From: Actinomycetota bacterium
GTDB taxonomy: Bacteria; Actinomycetota; Acidimicrobiia; Acidimicrobiales; Acidimicrobilacustridaceae
DNA length: 53,857 bases
Assembly (NCBI GenBank): GCA_009703925.1
Contig: WLFD01000002.1
Location: 1 to 53,857 of the forward strand
Reading direction: 5' to 3'
Part shown: piece by piece, positions 1 to 5,304 of the stretch
Layout: every line of letters starts with the position of its first letter
Position numbering within the stretch: the first letter of the stretch is position 1
Position numbers and translations under genes: made by a program
The notes under the pieces: generated by a model
What the model saw: only the letters and a program-made list of their open reading frames with translations
Told to the model about the DNA's origin: nothing
Database searches by the model: none

Positions 1-496
1 GCGTGTCCGAGTCCTCGATGTTCGTCTCGCACCTGGAGTAGATGGCCCCCGTATCAAGTCCTTCGGCAACCTCCATGAGGCAGACGCCGGTGACCGCATC
101 GCCGGCGAGAAGGGCCCGCTCGACAGGGGCGGCACCGCGCCAGCGCGGGAGTAGCGAGAAATGGAGATTGACCATCGGCACCTGCTCGAGAATCCGCATC
201 GGAATGATCCGTCCGTACGCGACAACCACCGCAAGGTCGACGCCCGCGTCGAGCACGGCTTCGAGATCGTCGGTGACCGGTAGCCCGAGTTCCGTGGCTG
301 CCGCCTTGACCGGACTGGGCGAAAGCTCGCCGCCCCGACCTCGACGACGATCGGGGCGGGTGACTACAAGTGCGATCTCGAATCCGGCCGAGACGAGGGC
401 CCGCAACACCGGTACTGCGACGTCCGGCGTTCCCATGAACGCGAGACGTTTCGGATGCAGGGGTGGCCGGGTCGGCCCATGCGGATTTTCGGTCAC
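1..496 (-). CDS. fmt: Methionyl-tRNA formyltransferase, 3' part outside window
   Basis: Transfers a formyl group from 10-formyl-tetrahydrofolate to initiator Met-tRNA. About 165 N-terminal residues are visible and the gene runs off the left edge. The reading frame shows the family's early MGTPDVAVPVL stretch, then VVTRPDRRRGRG, SPVKAAA, the folate-pocket segment VNLHFSLLPRWRGAAPVERA, and TGVCLMEVAEGLDTGAIY. I chose the GTG at 494-496 because it is in frame, lies 7 bases after the def stop, and leaves a short N-terminal extension before the conserved core. The def-fmt pair is a common operon in which deformylase and formylase act at opposite ends of initiator methionine processing. The identification is sure. 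The exact start is less so, because no clear Shine-Dalgarno sequence is visible. Confidence 0.93.
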   Translation of the reverse strand, partial: MTENPHGPTRPPLHPKRLAFMGTPDVAVPVLRALVSAGFEIALVVTRPDRRRGRGGELSPSPVKAAATELGLPVTDDLEAVLDAGVDLAVVVAYGRIIPMRILEQVPMVNLHFSLLPRWRGAAPVERALLAGDAVTGVCLMEVAEGLDTGAIYSRCETNIEDSDT

Positions 497-503
497 GAGG
501 TGC

Positions 504-1046
504 TCAACGCAGACGCAGTCGACTCGAGCCGACCTCGGGCTCGGGAAGTGGCCCGGCATTGTTCATGCGCAAGTCCATGAGCGCGACGCGTGCCTCGTCG
601 AGTTGTTCCTTCGTCAGGTGTTCGACGAGGAGGACCCCGTCGAGGTGATCGATCTCGTGTTGAAAGACGCGACAGGCGAAATCGTCGAGCTCGAGATTCA
701 GTTCCCTGCCATCGAGATCGAAACCCGTGACATGCATCTCGGCCGGACGGATGATCTCCCAGTGCAACCCGGGCACGGAGAGACACCCCTCGGTGAATTC
801 CGCTTCGCCCCGACTCTCCACGATCGTCGGATTGATGATGACGCCCGGTTCGTCGTCGTAGTCGAAGACGAAGAAACGCTGCTGCACACCGATCTGCGGA
901 GCAGCGAGGCCCACGCCCGGGGCGTCGTACATCGTGACGAACATGTCGTCGATGAGCTTCACGAACGCGCCGTCGACGCGCGTCACGTCCGAAGCACGTT
1001 GCTTCAGAACAGGGTCTCCGATGATGCGGATCGCGTGAGGGGCCAC
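504..1046 (-). CDS. def: Peptide deformylase
   Basis: Removes the formyl group from the N-terminal methionine of nascent proteins, using a bound metal ion. All three signature motifs are present: GVGLAAPQIG at residues 44-53, EGCLS at 86-90 with metal ligand Cys88, and HEIDH at 130-134 with two metal-binding His and the catalytic Glu. The 180-residue length is normal. It starts at a GTG with no Shine-Dalgarno sequence. A TACCCT hexamer ends 6 bases upstream, which suggests a leaderless message. fmt follows 7 bases downstream. The start region is shared with a divergent methyltransferase gene. Confidence 0.96.
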   Translation of the reverse strand: MAPHAIRIIGDPVLKQRASDVTRVDGAFVKLIDDMFVTMYDAPGVGLAAPQIGVQQRFFVFDYDDEPGVIINPTIVESRGEAEFTEGCLSVPGLHWEIIRPAEMHVTGFDLDGRELNLELDDFACRVFQHEIDHLDGVLLVEHLTKEQLDEARVALMDLRMNNAGPLPEPEVGSSRLRLR

Positions 1047-1052
1047 ACCTCA

Positions 1053-1058
1053 AGGGTA
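1053..1058 (-). promoter_or_regulatory. Probable leaderless -10 element of def
   Basis: TACCCT reads toward def and is followed by 6 bases and the GTG start, the spacing expected if transcription begins at the start codon. No good -35 is visible. Its first two bases are also part of the opposed TAGCGT element of the plus-strand gene. Confidence 0.45.
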
Positions 1059-1062
1059 GCGT
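1057..1062 (+). promoter_or_regulatory. Probable leaderless -10 element of the divergent methyltransferase
   Basis: TAGCGT is followed by 6 bases (CGGAGC) and the GTG start at 1069. The central TA (1057-1058) is shared with the minus-strand TACCCT of def, so the two -10 elements overlap head to head. Confidence 0.42.
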
Positions 1063-1068
1063 CGGAGC

Positions 1069-1716
1069 GTGGCCAGCTCCTCCTCCCAGTACTTCTCCCG
1101 GCACCCCGAGGTCGACTCCGATCCCCGCTCGATCCAGCTCTCGCTGGCCGACATCGAACTCACGCTCACAACCGACACCGGGGTCTTTTCCGCCGACCGT
1201 GTCGATTCGGGCACCCGACTCCTTCTGCAGGAGGCACCATGGCCGACGACGGAGATGGGCAACATCCTCGACATCGGATGCGGCTACGGGCCGGTTGCGC
1301 TGACCCTCGCCCGCCGGTCTCCCTCCAGCACGGTGTGGGCCGTGGATGTGAACGAGCGTGCGGTTGCACTCTGCGCGGCAAATGCCGAAGCAAACGGGAT
1401 CGACAATGTCCGACCCGTCGTCGTCGACGAATCCGGTCGACCGGTGGCCGGCGATCCGGCCCATCTGGTCGAACTCGGCCCCGCGACGTTCGACGCAATC
1501 TGGTCGAATCCCCCGATCCGGATCGGCAAGGAAGCACTCCATGCCCTTCTCGTCCACTGGCTCGATCGTCTCGCTCCCGGGGGCAAGGCGTGGCTCGTCG
1601 TGCAGAAGCACCTCGGAGCGGATTCGCTCGGAGCGTGGCTCGAGGGTGAAGGATGGGCAACGACCCGTTTGGTTTCGCGGGCGGGATACCGGCTTCTGGA
1701 GGTCGCAGCACGATGA
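1069..1716 (+). CDS. RsmC/small-domain SAM-dependent methyltransferase
   Basis: A 215-residue class I methyltransferase of the small-domain (MTS) type, related to 16S rRNA guanine-N2 methyltransferases such as RsmC. The SAM-binding motif LDIGCGYGP is at residues 67-75, the acidic end of strand 2 follows in AVDVNERAVALC at 91-102, and the catalytic SNPPIR is at 146-151. The Asn-Pro-Pro motif is typical of enzymes that methylate exocyclic amino groups. It corresponds to the single-domain form, without RsmC's N-terminal pseudo-methyltransferase half. The GTG start has no Shine-Dalgarno sequence. The stop overlaps the next gene's start as ATGA, so the two methyltransferases are probably co-translated. 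An rRNA substrate is inferred, not shown. Confidence 0.85.
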   Translation: MASSSSQYFSRHPEVDSDPRSIQLSLADIELTLTTDTGVFSADRVDSGTRLLLQEAPWPTTEMGNILDIGCGYGPVALTLARRSPSSTVWAVDVNERAVALCAANAEANGIDNVRPVVVDESGRPVAGDPAHLVELGPATFDAIWSNPPIRIGKEALHALLVHWLDRLAPGGKAWLVVQKHLGADSLGAWLEGEGWATTRLVSRAGYRLLEVAAR

Positions 1717-2237
1717 CTCGCTCACTGGGTGGAACCGAACTGAAGCGCCTGCACCGCGAGTGGCGCCGCAAGGAACACGCCAAGCTCGCCCTGATGCTCG
1801 ATGGCGTCCAGAATCCGTTCAACATCGGTGCGATCCTGCGCACGGCCGCGGCCTATTCGGTCGATCATCTCTGGCTCGTAGGGTCACCGGAACCCAATGA
1901 TTCGAAGGTTCAGAAAACCGCTCTGGGAACACAGCGATTTCTCACGTGGACCATGTGCGAGACCTCGGCGGAGGCTCTCTCCGCGGCAAAGGCAGCCGGT
2001 TACAAGGTCGTCGGCGTCGAACTGGCCGAGGATGCAAAACCGCTCCACGAACTCGATCTGACGGGAAATGTCTGCCTCGCCATCGGCCATGAAGACCGGG
2101 GACTCTCGAAAGACGCTCTCGCCGATTGTGACGAACTCGGCTACATCCCGCAGCTCGGCCGCATCGGTTCACTCAATGTCGGCACGGCAACAGCCATCGC
2201 CTGCTACGAAGCGCGTCGCGCCGGCTGGACGGCTTAG
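1713..2237 (+). CDS. SpoU/TrmH-family RNA 2'-O-methyltransferase
   Basis: A SPOUT-fold methyltransferase that modifies ribose 2'-OH in tRNA or rRNA. All three SpoU motifs are visible: NPFNIGAILRTAAAY near residue 33, LAIGHEDRGLS near 121, and IPQLGRIGSLNVGTATAIA near 142, which together form the trefoil-knot SAM site. It is 174 residues from the ATG at 1713, which overlaps the previous stop as ATGA. A GGAGG lies 13 bases upstream of it. An in-frame ATG at 1653 would add 20 residues lying inside the upstream gene and is less likely. Its stop codon overlaps the stop of convergent priA. The specific target (for example tRNA Gm18) cannot be assigned from sequence. Confidence 0.88.
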   Translation: MTRSLGGTELKRLHREWRRKEHAKLALMLDGVQNPFNIGAILRTAAAYSVDHLWLVGSPEPNDSKVQKTALGTQRFLTWTMCETSAEALSAAKAAGYKVVGVELAEDAKPLHELDLTGNVCLAIGHEDRGLSKDALADCDELGYIPQLGRIGSLNVGTATAIACYEARRAGWTA

Positions 2238-4081
2238 AGCCGCAGGGGATCCACCTCGAGGCGCATCCTCCCCGGAGGCCGGCTGACCGTCGAGAGCGCG
2301 TCGCACAATGTTTCGTGGTCAGCCGCCCTTATGAGCCATCGGTCCTCAGATGGCCCGAGGACCTCGACCCCGTCGTGCTTCCCGAACGCCGCGATCCATG
2401 CCGGAGCCGAGGCTCCCGAAACGACGGCCATCGCCGTCGTGGGCGGATAACCGAGAGCGGAACGTCGCCCGGCTTCGGCGGTCGCCACCCGCGTCGGTTC
2501 CGCGAGCAGCGCCCCCTGGAGAACTTCGTGCTGGGGTAGCCGCGTCTGAACGAGGATTCGGCCGCCGCCGGCCCTGTCGCCCACCAGACGGGCGGCCCGG
2601 ACCATGATCGCCATCGCTTCTTCCGACGCCCGATAGCGGGGAGCGAGAAGTTCCTGATCGAAATCGAGGAACACCACGACGTCGGCCGAATCGATCTGAT
2701 GGAGGGCCGCTTCGGTTCCGATGACGATCCTCGTGCCGGTTCCACCGGCCGCACGAACCGTGTCCGCGGTCAGTTCGGTCACGGGTTCGCGTGCCAACGC
2801 TTCGAGTTCCTCGCGGACGCGGCTCACTCCCGCTCGGAGATTTTTCATCTTCGTCGCGCCGCAGTTCACGCAGATCGTCGGCCTGACCGCGTCGCATCGC
2901 AGGCAGACGAGCGTTCCGTCATCAGCTTGCACGACGGCGGCAGTGCATCGTTCGCATGTGGCGACTTCGCCACATGCGGCACAGCTCGACAAACGCGAGC
3001 GTCCCTTTCGGTTCAAGATGCAGATCACTCTTCCGCCGCTGCGCAGTGCATCGACGAGTTGAACGCTGTAGAGGCCCTCCCCCGGTGGAGCATCGCGCCG
3101 GTCGATGATCTCGATCCGCGGCCATCCGGCCCGCTCCGCCGAACGGGAAGGCACGAACAACCGACTGACCGCCAATGCCTCGAGCGACGGAGTCGGACTC
3201 ACGAGCACGCATGGCACGCCACCGCGACGGGCTCGTTCGATGAGCACATCGCGAGCGTTCCAGGTCGGAGCCTGCTCCTGCTGCAACGATTCATCGTGCT
3301 CGTCGAGAACCACGATCGCCGCCGGAGCGGCAACGGGTGCCCAAGCTGCCGCCCGGGATCCCATGACCGTGTACCCGCCCGAACGGGCCGCGGCCCAGTC
3401 GTCGGGCATGAGCGCCACGGGAAAGCCGGCCCTCCGCAGTCGGAGACCGAGTCGTCGAACAGTCGATGCAACGGGGCCCACGACGAGGATCGGTCCGCGT
3501 TGCGCCGCAGCGACCAGTACCGGATAGGGATCGGCCGCCGGAGGCAACCTGAGGGTTGCGAGCCCGGCGTCGAGTGCGTCCGAAGCCAGGGAGTGGACCT
3601 CGTCGGTGGCGATCGCCGACGGCGGCGGCCCGGTTCGAGAAGCCACACGCGGCAGCGCCCGGACAACCGTGCCGGCGGTGGCCGTTCGCAGGAACGATGC
3701 CGGCCGACCCGCCCATCGCCATGCTGCCCAGTCGGCGAGGTCGATCAACTCGGCAGGTGGACCCCATCCGGACACCTTCGCCAGCGGCTGGAGTCTGACC
3801 CCGGGAGGTGGCTCGACATCATCGGCGACGATCCAGCCCCCGACCCGGCGACCATGCAGTGCCACACGCACCGCGGTTCCGATCCGGATGTCGGCGTCGA
3901 TCCGATCGGGCACCTCGTAATCGAACAACTTGTCGATCGCCGGTACATCCGGCCGGACGCGAACGACCCTGCCCGCCGGAGGGCCGGCGATCTCCGGAGC
4001 TTCCTCTTCGACAGCCGGTACCGATTCGGGAATGTCGGGCGCGCCGAAGTCGAAGGCTGATTGTCGCGGGGCCGGGGGCAC
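2234..4081 (-). CDS. priA: Primosomal protein N' (PriA), ATPase-deficient actinobacterial form
   Basis: Replication-restart protein that recognises forked DNA. From the GTG at 4081 it is 615 residues. An N-terminal DNA-binding region (about 38-110) is followed by a degenerate helicase core. The Walker A position reads VVGPVAST, with no Gly-Lys-Thr, and the DEEH box reads LDEHDES (259-265). The eight zinc-ligand cysteines are intact at 367, 370, 376, 379, 393, 396, 404 and 407. Loss of ATPase motifs is a known trait of actinobacterial PriA, so it probably acts as a loader without unwinding. I chose the GTG because it lies 29 bases after metK with an AGAGGG upstream. A longer start at 4162 would overlap metK by 52 bases. 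The 3' end overlaps a convergent gene by four bases. Confidence 0.9.
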   Translation of the reverse strand: MPPAPRQSAFDFGAPDIPESVPAVEEEAPEIAGPPAGRVVRVRPDVPAIDKLFDYEVPDRIDADIRIGTAVRVALHGRRVGGWIVADDVEPPPGVRLQPLAKVSGWGPPAELIDLADWAAWRWAGRPASFLRTATAGTVVRALPRVASRTGPPPSAIATDEVHSLASDALDAGLATLRLPPAADPYPVLVAAAQRGPILVVGPVASTVRRLGLRLRRAGFPVALMPDDWAAARSGGYTVMGSRAAAWAPVAAPAAIVVLDEHDESLQQEQAPTWNARDVLIERARRGGVPCVLVSPTPSLEALAVSRLFVPSRSAERAGWPRIEIIDRRDAPPGEGLYSVQLVDALRSGGRVICILNRKGRSRLSSCAACGEVATCERCTAAVVQADDGTLVCLRCDAVRPTICVNCGATKMKNLRAGVSRVREELEALAREPVTELTADTVRAAGGTGTRIVIGTEAALHQIDSADVVVFLDFDQELLAPRYRASEEAMAIMVRAARLVGDRAGGGRILVQTRLPQHEVLQGALLAEPTRVATAEAGRRSALGYPPTTAMAVVSGASAPAWIAAFGKHDGVEVLGPSEDRWLIRAADHETLCDALSTVSRPPGRMRLEVDPLRL

Positions 4082-4110
4082 GCCGGGGCGCTGCCCTCTC
4101 GAGGTTCCCG

Positions 4111-5304
4111 TCAGAGACCGAGCGCCGACTTGAGGTCGTCCACCCGGTCGGTGCGCTCCCACGTGAAGGCGTCGCCGATGCGACCGAAATGGCCGTATGC
4201 GGCGGTGGCCTTGTAACGGGGCTTGCGCAGATCGAGATCGCGGGCGATCGCCGCCGGACGGAGATCGAACACATCCCGCACGGCGGCGGAGATCAGTTCT
4301 TCGTCGACGGTTGCCGTTCCGAATGTTTCGACCATGATCGAAACGGGATGGGCGACACCGATCGCATAGGCGACCTGGACTTCACAACGATCGGCCGCGC
4401 CGGATGCCACGAGATTCTTGGCGACCCAACGGGCGGCGTACGCCGCTGAACGATCGACCTTCGAGGGGTCCTTGCCCGAGAAGGCGCCGCCACCGTGACG
4501 GGCCATACCGCCGTAGGTGTCGACGATGATCTTGCGGCCGGTGAGTCCGGCGTCGCCGACGGGACCACCGATGACGAATCGTCCGGTCGGATTGACGAGC
4601 ACTTCGTAATCGTCGTCGGCAAACTGGGCCGGCACCACGGGACGAATGACGTGCTCGATGAGATCGGGACGGATCGCTTCTTCGCGATCGATGCCGTCGT
4701 TGTGCTGCGTCGAGATGAGCACGGTGCGCAGGCGAACCGGCTTCCCGTCCACGTAATCGAAGGTGACCTGGGTCTTGCCATCGGGCCGGAGGTACGGAAC
4801 GGTTCCGGCTTTGCGGACTTCGGCCAGACGCTCGGCCATGCGATGGGCGAGGTGGATCGGAAGCGGCATCAGCACGTCGGTCTCGGTGCAGGCGTAGCCG
4901 AACATCATTCCCTGATCGCCGGCGCCCTGCTTGTTGAGGATGTCCTCGCCGGACGTTCCCGAGCGGACCTCTTCGGAATCATCGACTCCTTGAGCGATGT
5001 CCTTCGACTGGGCATCGAGCGACACCATGACGCCGACGGTCGAACCGTCGTAGCCATAGGACTCGCGGTCGTAGCCGATCCCCTTGATCGTCTCGCGCAC
5101 GATCTTCGGAATGTCCACCCAACCCGACGTGGTGACCTCACCGGCGACGATGGCCAGACCGGTGGTGACGAGGGTCTCGCAGGCAACACGCGATTCCGGA
5201 TCCTGCTCGAGCATCGCATCGAGAATTGCGTCGGAGATCTGGTCGGCCATCTTGTCGGGATGACCTTCGGTGACCGATTCCGAGGTGAAAGTCCAACTGC
5301 TCAC
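4111..5304 (-). CDS. metK: S-adenosylmethionine synthase
   Basis: Makes S-adenosylmethionine from methionine and ATP, releasing phosphate and pyrophosphate. The 397-residue protein starts with the family's [11 protein letters not shown]. It has the adenosine-binding [12 protein letters not shown] near residue 126 and the phosphate-binding GGGAFSGKD near 271. The GTG start has a good AGGAG seven bases upstream, unlike many genes in this window that appear leaderless. It follows coaBC by 39 bases. A run of five T in that gap has no hairpin before it, so I do not call a terminator. No SAM riboswitch fits in the available space. Confidence 0.97.

Follow-up and report, generated by a model that had tools for sequence, protein, structure and literature searches.

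Bidirectional Promoters and Leaderless Genes

The closest described counterparts of the locus analyzed here are the bidirectional promoters of the Grainger and Wade groups (Warman et al., 2021; as presented in PMC12825309 and PMC10268837), in which a single symmetrical −10 region is used on both strands. A bidirectional promoter is defined by divergent start sites lying 7–25 bp apart, with reciprocal overlap of the key −10 positions (PMC10268837). In E. coli the commonest distance between divergent start sites is reported to be 18 bp, 10 and 23 bp being frequent too, and in the five E. coli bidirectional promoters described as tested the basal activity was too low for competition between the two directions, which arises once one direction is substantially activated (PMC12825309).

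Leaderless genes of actinobacteria are described as carrying TANNNT about 12 bp 5′ of an ATG or GTG start codon, with no conserved −35 element (PMC3160421; for M. tuberculosis, PMC3898074). Closely juxtaposed divergent promoters are said to be common in M. tuberculosis, and a divergent leaderless pair, prpD/Rv1129c, is reported there (PMC3898074). The lysG and lysE genes of the same species are divergent, have overlapping promoters, and give one lysE transcript that is leaderless (PMC5648196). As described, however, their intergenic region spans 108 bp and includes the site of a LysR-type regulator, and the leaderless lysE transcript comes from a second promoter, distinct from the one described as overlapping (PMC5648196). 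Searches of the open-licence literature on leaderless genes with bidirectional or overlapping promoters, and on leaderless genes in Acidimicrobiia or of deformylase, brought up no account of two leaderless genes using a common −10 element.

The divergent pair described below, def and a methyltransferase gene, combines features of these systems. Like the bidirectional promoters of the Grainger and Wade groups it has one symmetrical −10 region for both strands, its start-to-start distance of 23 bp corresponds to a preferred class of E. coli (PMC12825309, PMC10268837), and its −12/−11 positions would pair reciprocally. Unlike those promoters, its transcription starts would coincide with start codons and its geometry would be fixed by two genes. 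Like actinobacterial leaderless genes it has TANNNT about 12 bp upstream of a GTG start, but where the accounts of that signature in PMC3160421 and PMC3898074 treat single promoters, here two apparently leaderless genes meet at one −10 element.

The def/Methyltransferase Locus

The window, the whole stretch of 53,857 nucleotides that was analyzed, carries the divergent pair near its beginning. The pair and the genes around it are the following.

2–559, minus strand: fmt-like formyltransferase ORF that runs past the window edge (Formyl_trans_N, PF00551, E = 1e-29)
504–1046, minus strand: def, peptide deformylase, ORF of 180 aa with a GTG start at 1046 (Pep_deformylase, PF01327, E = 5.9e-47)
1069–1716, plus strand: MTS-domain methyltransferase, ORF of 215 aa with a GTG start at 1069 (MTS, PF05175, E = 2.4e-32)
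1713–2237, plus strand: SpoU-family RNA 2′-O-methyltransferase (SpoU_methylase, PF00588, E = 2.7e-35)
2234–4162, minus strand: gene with a PriA 3′ DNA-binding domain (ORF, domain match)
4111–5304, minus strand: S-adenosylmethionine synthetase gene (ORF, domain match)

The def product scores above two curated cut-offs (NF001159, 166.6 against 125; TIGR00079, 140.8 against 103.95). The fmt-like ORF overlaps the end of def and the two are likely co-transcribed; on the other strand, the start of the SpoU-family gene overlaps the stop of the MTS-domain methyltransferase (ATGA, 1713–1716), with which it is likewise likely to be co-transcribed. The original prediction had called the product of this plus-strand gene an rRNA methyltransferase. 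The second word stands, with the MTS domain as the sole clear match, and the first is not supported: none of the 25 NCBIfam matches listed for the protein attains its cut-off. Identity with RsmC or RlmG is not supported either, both model scores (51.6 against a cut-off of 295 and 45.3 against 468, respectively) being far under the curated NCBIfam cut-offs.

Between the start codons of def and the methyltransferase there are 22 bases, which corresponds to a coordinate difference of 23. Read directly, positions 1041–1071 are ggCCACACCTCAAGGGTAGCGTCGGAGCGTG, and the layout of positions 1044–1071 is CAC-N6-AGGGTAGCGT-N6-GTG, made up of these elements.

1046–1044, minus strand: GTG start codon of def
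1047–1052, minus strand: discriminator of def, variable in sequence, 6–8 bases among relatives
1053–1058, minus strand: −10-like hexamer TACCCT of def, gap of 6 to its GTG
1053–1062, both strands: shared core AGGGTAGCGT, family consensus AGGSTASCGT, matched in 43 of 43 shared-core loci
1057–1058, both strands: TA common to both hexamers, likewise shared in 43 of 66 loci
1057–1062, plus strand: −10-like hexamer TAGCGT of the methyltransferase, gap of 6 to its GTG
1063–1068, plus strand: discriminator of the methyltransferase, variable except for a frequent leading CG, 6–9 bases in fused relatives
1069–1071, plus strand: GTG start codon of the methyltransferase

Coordinates, hexamers, overlap, 6-base gaps and 22-base spacing all agree with what had been predicted. 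The first T of each hexamer stands 12 bases upstream of its own GTG, the register of TANNNT in actinobacterial leaderless genes, and at the TA of 1057–1058 the −10 elements overlap reciprocally on opposite strands, as in a bidirectional promoter. TTGACA, as a −35 element, is absent by eye on either side of the core, and the first codons of def occupy the would-be upstream promoter region of the methyltransferase. Among 20 genus sequences compared by eye, the six bases 5′ of each start vary, and a conserved purine-rich or Shine-Dalgarno element was found upstream of neither.

Leaderless Signature in the Genus

The spacing of TANNNT from start codons was surveyed in six genomes of the genus, window included (1,041,308 bases), in which 815 ORFs with a length of 120 codons or more passed a codon-position filter. 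For each gap from 0 to 30 the tally counts the ORFs in which TANNNT stands that many bases before a candidate ATG or GTG. Gaps of 6, 7, 8 and 9 bases are found in 61, 36, 27 and 17 of the 815 ORFs, and every other gap in 0–8; four rearranged control motifs gave no such peak in the same ORFs. The gap-6 starts comprise 39 ATG and 22 GTG codons, and their hexamers are variable at the NNN positions, with TAGCGT and TAGCCT among the ordinary leaderless hexamers of the genus. Judged from sequence, the peak is the signature described for actinobacterial leaderless genes in PMC3160421 and PMC3898074.

A Probable Shared Leaderless Core Promoter

The site is most simply read as a bidirectional promoter of the 23-bp class with two leaderless transcripts, and we put the probability that the def/methyltransferase core is a conserved bidirectional, leaderless core promoter of the −12/−11-sharing type at about 0.85. 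What the sequences themselves show is the motif, its register with both starts, a genus-wide leaderless rule, conservation of the motif across the Acidimicrobiia, and recurrent shifts between a shared core and separate hexamers. RNA polymerase, probably carrying the housekeeping sigma factor, would recognize TANNNT on either strand of a single 10-bp core, ANNNTANNNT. With the G of each GTG taken as +1, −12T/−11A of one promoter would pair with −11A/−12T of the other, and the −7T of each would form the outer ends of the core. Transcription would start about 7 bases downstream of each hexamer, at the first base of the def GTG or of the methyltransferase GTG, giving two mRNAs without a 5′ leader from start codons locked 23 bases apart (23–28 in relatives). 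Polymerases would exclude each other at the core; engagement of one direction at a time is suggested here by the overlap and is stated for E. coli (PMC12825309).

Start-site mapping is the usual way of finding bidirectional promoters. Because both start codons would report start sites, a promoter of two leaderless genes should be readable from DNA alone, and how such promoters come to be shared or split in evolution should then be traceable across species without RNA data.

Conservation of the Locus Across Acidimicrobiia

A gap length that differed in close relatives had been named in advance as grounds for refuting the prediction. That check was run and the gap held, the 23-base start-to-start register being kept in 20 of 21 genus genomes. 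In the exception, G013, there are only weak paralogous methyltransferase matches (best E = 3.6e-7), so the methyltransferase may be missing from that assembly.

Across a larger sample, 125 loci were examined, 45 of them from 61 whole genomes and 80 as named loci; removal of 6 duplicates, 2 loci with a distant def and 51 that lack an adjacent divergent def left 66 distinct loci. The def-side ANNNTA occurs at a gap of 6–8 in every one of these 66 loci. One core is shared in 43 of them (38 with in-frame starts on both sides around one ANNNTANNNT, and 5 with a mini-ORF), the hexamers are separate in 12, and 11 have a def hexamer only. Conservation of the core in 43 of 66 loci and of its def half in all 66 gives strong support to the predicted arrangement of head-to-head leaderless promoters with a shared core. 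The two gaps in the 38 fused loci are (6,6) in 21, (7,7) in 11, (8,8) in 2, (6,7) in 2, (6,8) in 1 and (8,9) in 1, with start codons 23–25 bases apart in 35 loci and 27–28 in the remaining 3.

In the five shared-core loci with a mini-ORF (L124, L130, L134, L137, and L143), a leaderless ATG or GTG at a gap of 7 opens a reading frame of 8–22 codons whose TGA overlaps the methyltransferase GTG, an arrangement that suggests translational coupling. In the 12 split loci, def and the methyltransferase have separate hexamers at gaps of 6–8; that of the methyltransferase is TACCGT in five (L029, L044, L047, L171, and L195), and TACGGT, TACCTT, TAGGTT, TAGCGT and TAGTCT occur among split loci as well. 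A tree of the two proteins with 66 rows, made by a quick method with SH-aLRT support only, needs 11 changes for shared versus not shared and 10 for the split state alone, counts that are blind to gain versus loss. Of the 11 def-only rows, all but one group in a single clade. This distribution is most simply read, though the tree leaves it unproven, as an ancient shared promoter split on many occasions.

Where the methyltransferase is found away from an adjacent def (49 named loci and the 2 with a distant def), TANNNT stands at a gap of 6–9 in 18 of 51 loci and is absent in 33, so the methyltransferase is not generally leaderless outside the divergent arrangement with def. The same def/methyltransferase site as in the window is also carried by L119 (JAGWYK010000003.1).

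Frequency of Fused Cores

The fused pattern CAYN6ANNNTANNNTN6RTG has 139 matches in 61 genomes, that of the window among them, against 41 for a reversed control, and 65 against 16 in the 21 genus genomes; the out-of-register N3/N3 form of the motif has 8 and 3 matches in the same two sets. These raw counts overstate true two-gene promoters because many matches in the genus (e.g., L049, L057, and L061) are flanked by a long ORF on one side only. Long ORFs stand on both sides at L050/L059, L069, L073, L074, L075 and the def loci, and at L218 in the 25-bp form. For that 25-bp class (N7/N7) there are 80 matches against 52 reversed in the 61 genomes and 15 against 14 in the genus, a modest excess confined to genomes outside the genus, yet 11 def/methyltransferase loci use N7/N7.

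Unlike in E. coli, where the 18-bp class dominates (PMC12825309), the leaderless 18-bp form (CAYN5TANNNTAN5RTG) is without excess, at 23 against 83 reversed matches in the 61 genomes and 3 against 49 in the genus. Since the reversed control has AT in place of TA, and TA may be the rarer of the two, these counts stand for no excess and not for true depletion. Among 173 divergent ORF pairs in the genus sample, at least 9 have TANNNT at a gap of 6–9 on both sides and at least 2 are fused, namely the window pair and one in L215; both counts are lower bounds because the filter missed the known G019 site inside L102.

Constraint on the Core and Alternative Explanations

Calling a locus fused required A, TA and T alone, which in the proposed architecture is what a doubly used −10 element demands. 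The GG and CG of AGGSTASCGT are nonetheless invariant in all 43 shared cores, beyond what TANNNT requires, whereas generic hexamers of the genus are free at NNN, and something besides a generic −10 element may therefore be constrained in the core. Both S positions vary (G 25 and C 18 at each), and bases outside the core are increasingly variable. Among the 20 genus sequences, synonymous change over the first 12 codons was 0.60 of that expected in def, with 2 of 167 windows as low, and 0.50 in the methyltransferase, with 1 of 202 as low, which is the 5′ window itself; the expectations are per residue. Low synonymous change at both 5′ ends fits each end serving the promoter of the other gene, but may be a general effect of gene starts.

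What, beyond initiating two transcripts, might such a core do? The original prediction held that it ties the expression of the two genes together. As a competitive switch, the core would couple def (with fmt) reciprocally to the methyltransferase (with the SpoU enzyme), which would add a function to the bidirectional promoter and replace nothing in that reading. Overlapping cores would make simultaneous binding sterically unlikely, competition is reported when one direction is strongly activated (PMC12825309), and the shared core is conserved across the order. However, basal interference was absent in all five E. coli promoters described as tested (PMC12825309), and coupling appears dispensable because separate hexamers are found in 12 of 66 loci, with 10 changes of the split state on the tree. 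We consider a switch unlikely; strong regulatory coupling of def and the methyltransferase as the main function is not supported, and the prediction as a whole is upheld in part. The fused, split and mini-ORF forms of this one gene pair would make a natural series for testing polymerase competition at shared promoters. That two promoters were packed together by genome compaction, with overlap as an economy and no selection on the sharing itself, is a real possibility, if short of an even chance. Changes between shared and separate hexamers recur on the tree and fused pairs are rare (2 of the 173 divergent pairs), but compaction leaves unexplained why one shared core was retained over much of the order, larger genomes included (G060, 4.8 Mb; G054, 4.2 Mb).

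The invariant GG and CG would be explained if a sequence-specific regulator or an alternative sigma factor recognized AGGSTASCGT as well. Their invariance holds in 43 of 43 loci across a diverse order, while generic leaderless hexamers of the genus vary, and split methyltransferase promoters often retain TACCGT (5 of 12). Yet the core is an incomplete palindrome, split loci use five further hexamers too, TAGCGT and TAGCCT are commonplace leaderless hexamers in the genus, and a regulator gene is absent among the neighbors examined, which together make a dedicated site of this kind quite improbable. Far less credible is a chance match combined with misassigned starts and conventional Shine-Dalgarno leaders. 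CGGAGC, directly 5′ of the methyltransferase GTG, does contain GGAG, but a single base separates it from the start and it lacks conservation, CGTGAC standing in place of CGGAGC in 13 of 20 genus sequences, and both start codons are in register in 38 of 66 loci. A chance match was rejected on the excess of the fused pattern, the peak at gaps 6–9, conservation over the 66 loci and the N3/N3 control.

Fused Cores at Other Gene Pairs

Fused cores with ORFs on both sides occur at several other divergent gene pairs: a zinc-type dehydrogenase and a molybdopterin oxidoreductase (L050, L059), an acyl-CoA dehydrogenase and an AMP-binding protein (L069), a luciferase-like protein and a methyltransferase (L074), and a NUDIX and a DNA-alkylation-repair protein (L075). 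An N7/N7 core in L218 lies between an inositol-phosphatase family gene and a 187-codon ORF.

More broadly, leaderless translation and bidirectional promoters may have come together in the Acidimicrobiia as a minimal divergent unit some 28 bp long, with starts, discriminators and a doubly used −10 element in fixed register. Such a unit would have the 23-type (−12/−11) geometry and not the 18-type, would be carried by several conserved gene pairs, and in the def/methyltransferase case would make the two directions interdependent through AGGSTASCGT. As a whole we hold this proposal to be tentative and rather doubtful.

The shared promoter of the dehydrogenase/molybdopterin oxidoreductase pair is present on two contigs of G015 (L223, L224), each time near a contig end, which may reflect either two copies or an assembly duplication. 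A fused core is also found between divergent genes for an IclR regulator and an aconitase-family (leuC-like) protein, at L032:1501–1534 and in L058, L062, L067 and L071. This core is flanked on one side by a leaderless IclR start and on the other by an ATG with a stop codon directly after it, observed as ATG TGA in L032 and L062; in L062 the aconitase-family ORF begins about 75 bases beyond this ATG-stop. Here a start-stop that is conserved would lie at the predicted 5′ end of an mRNA.
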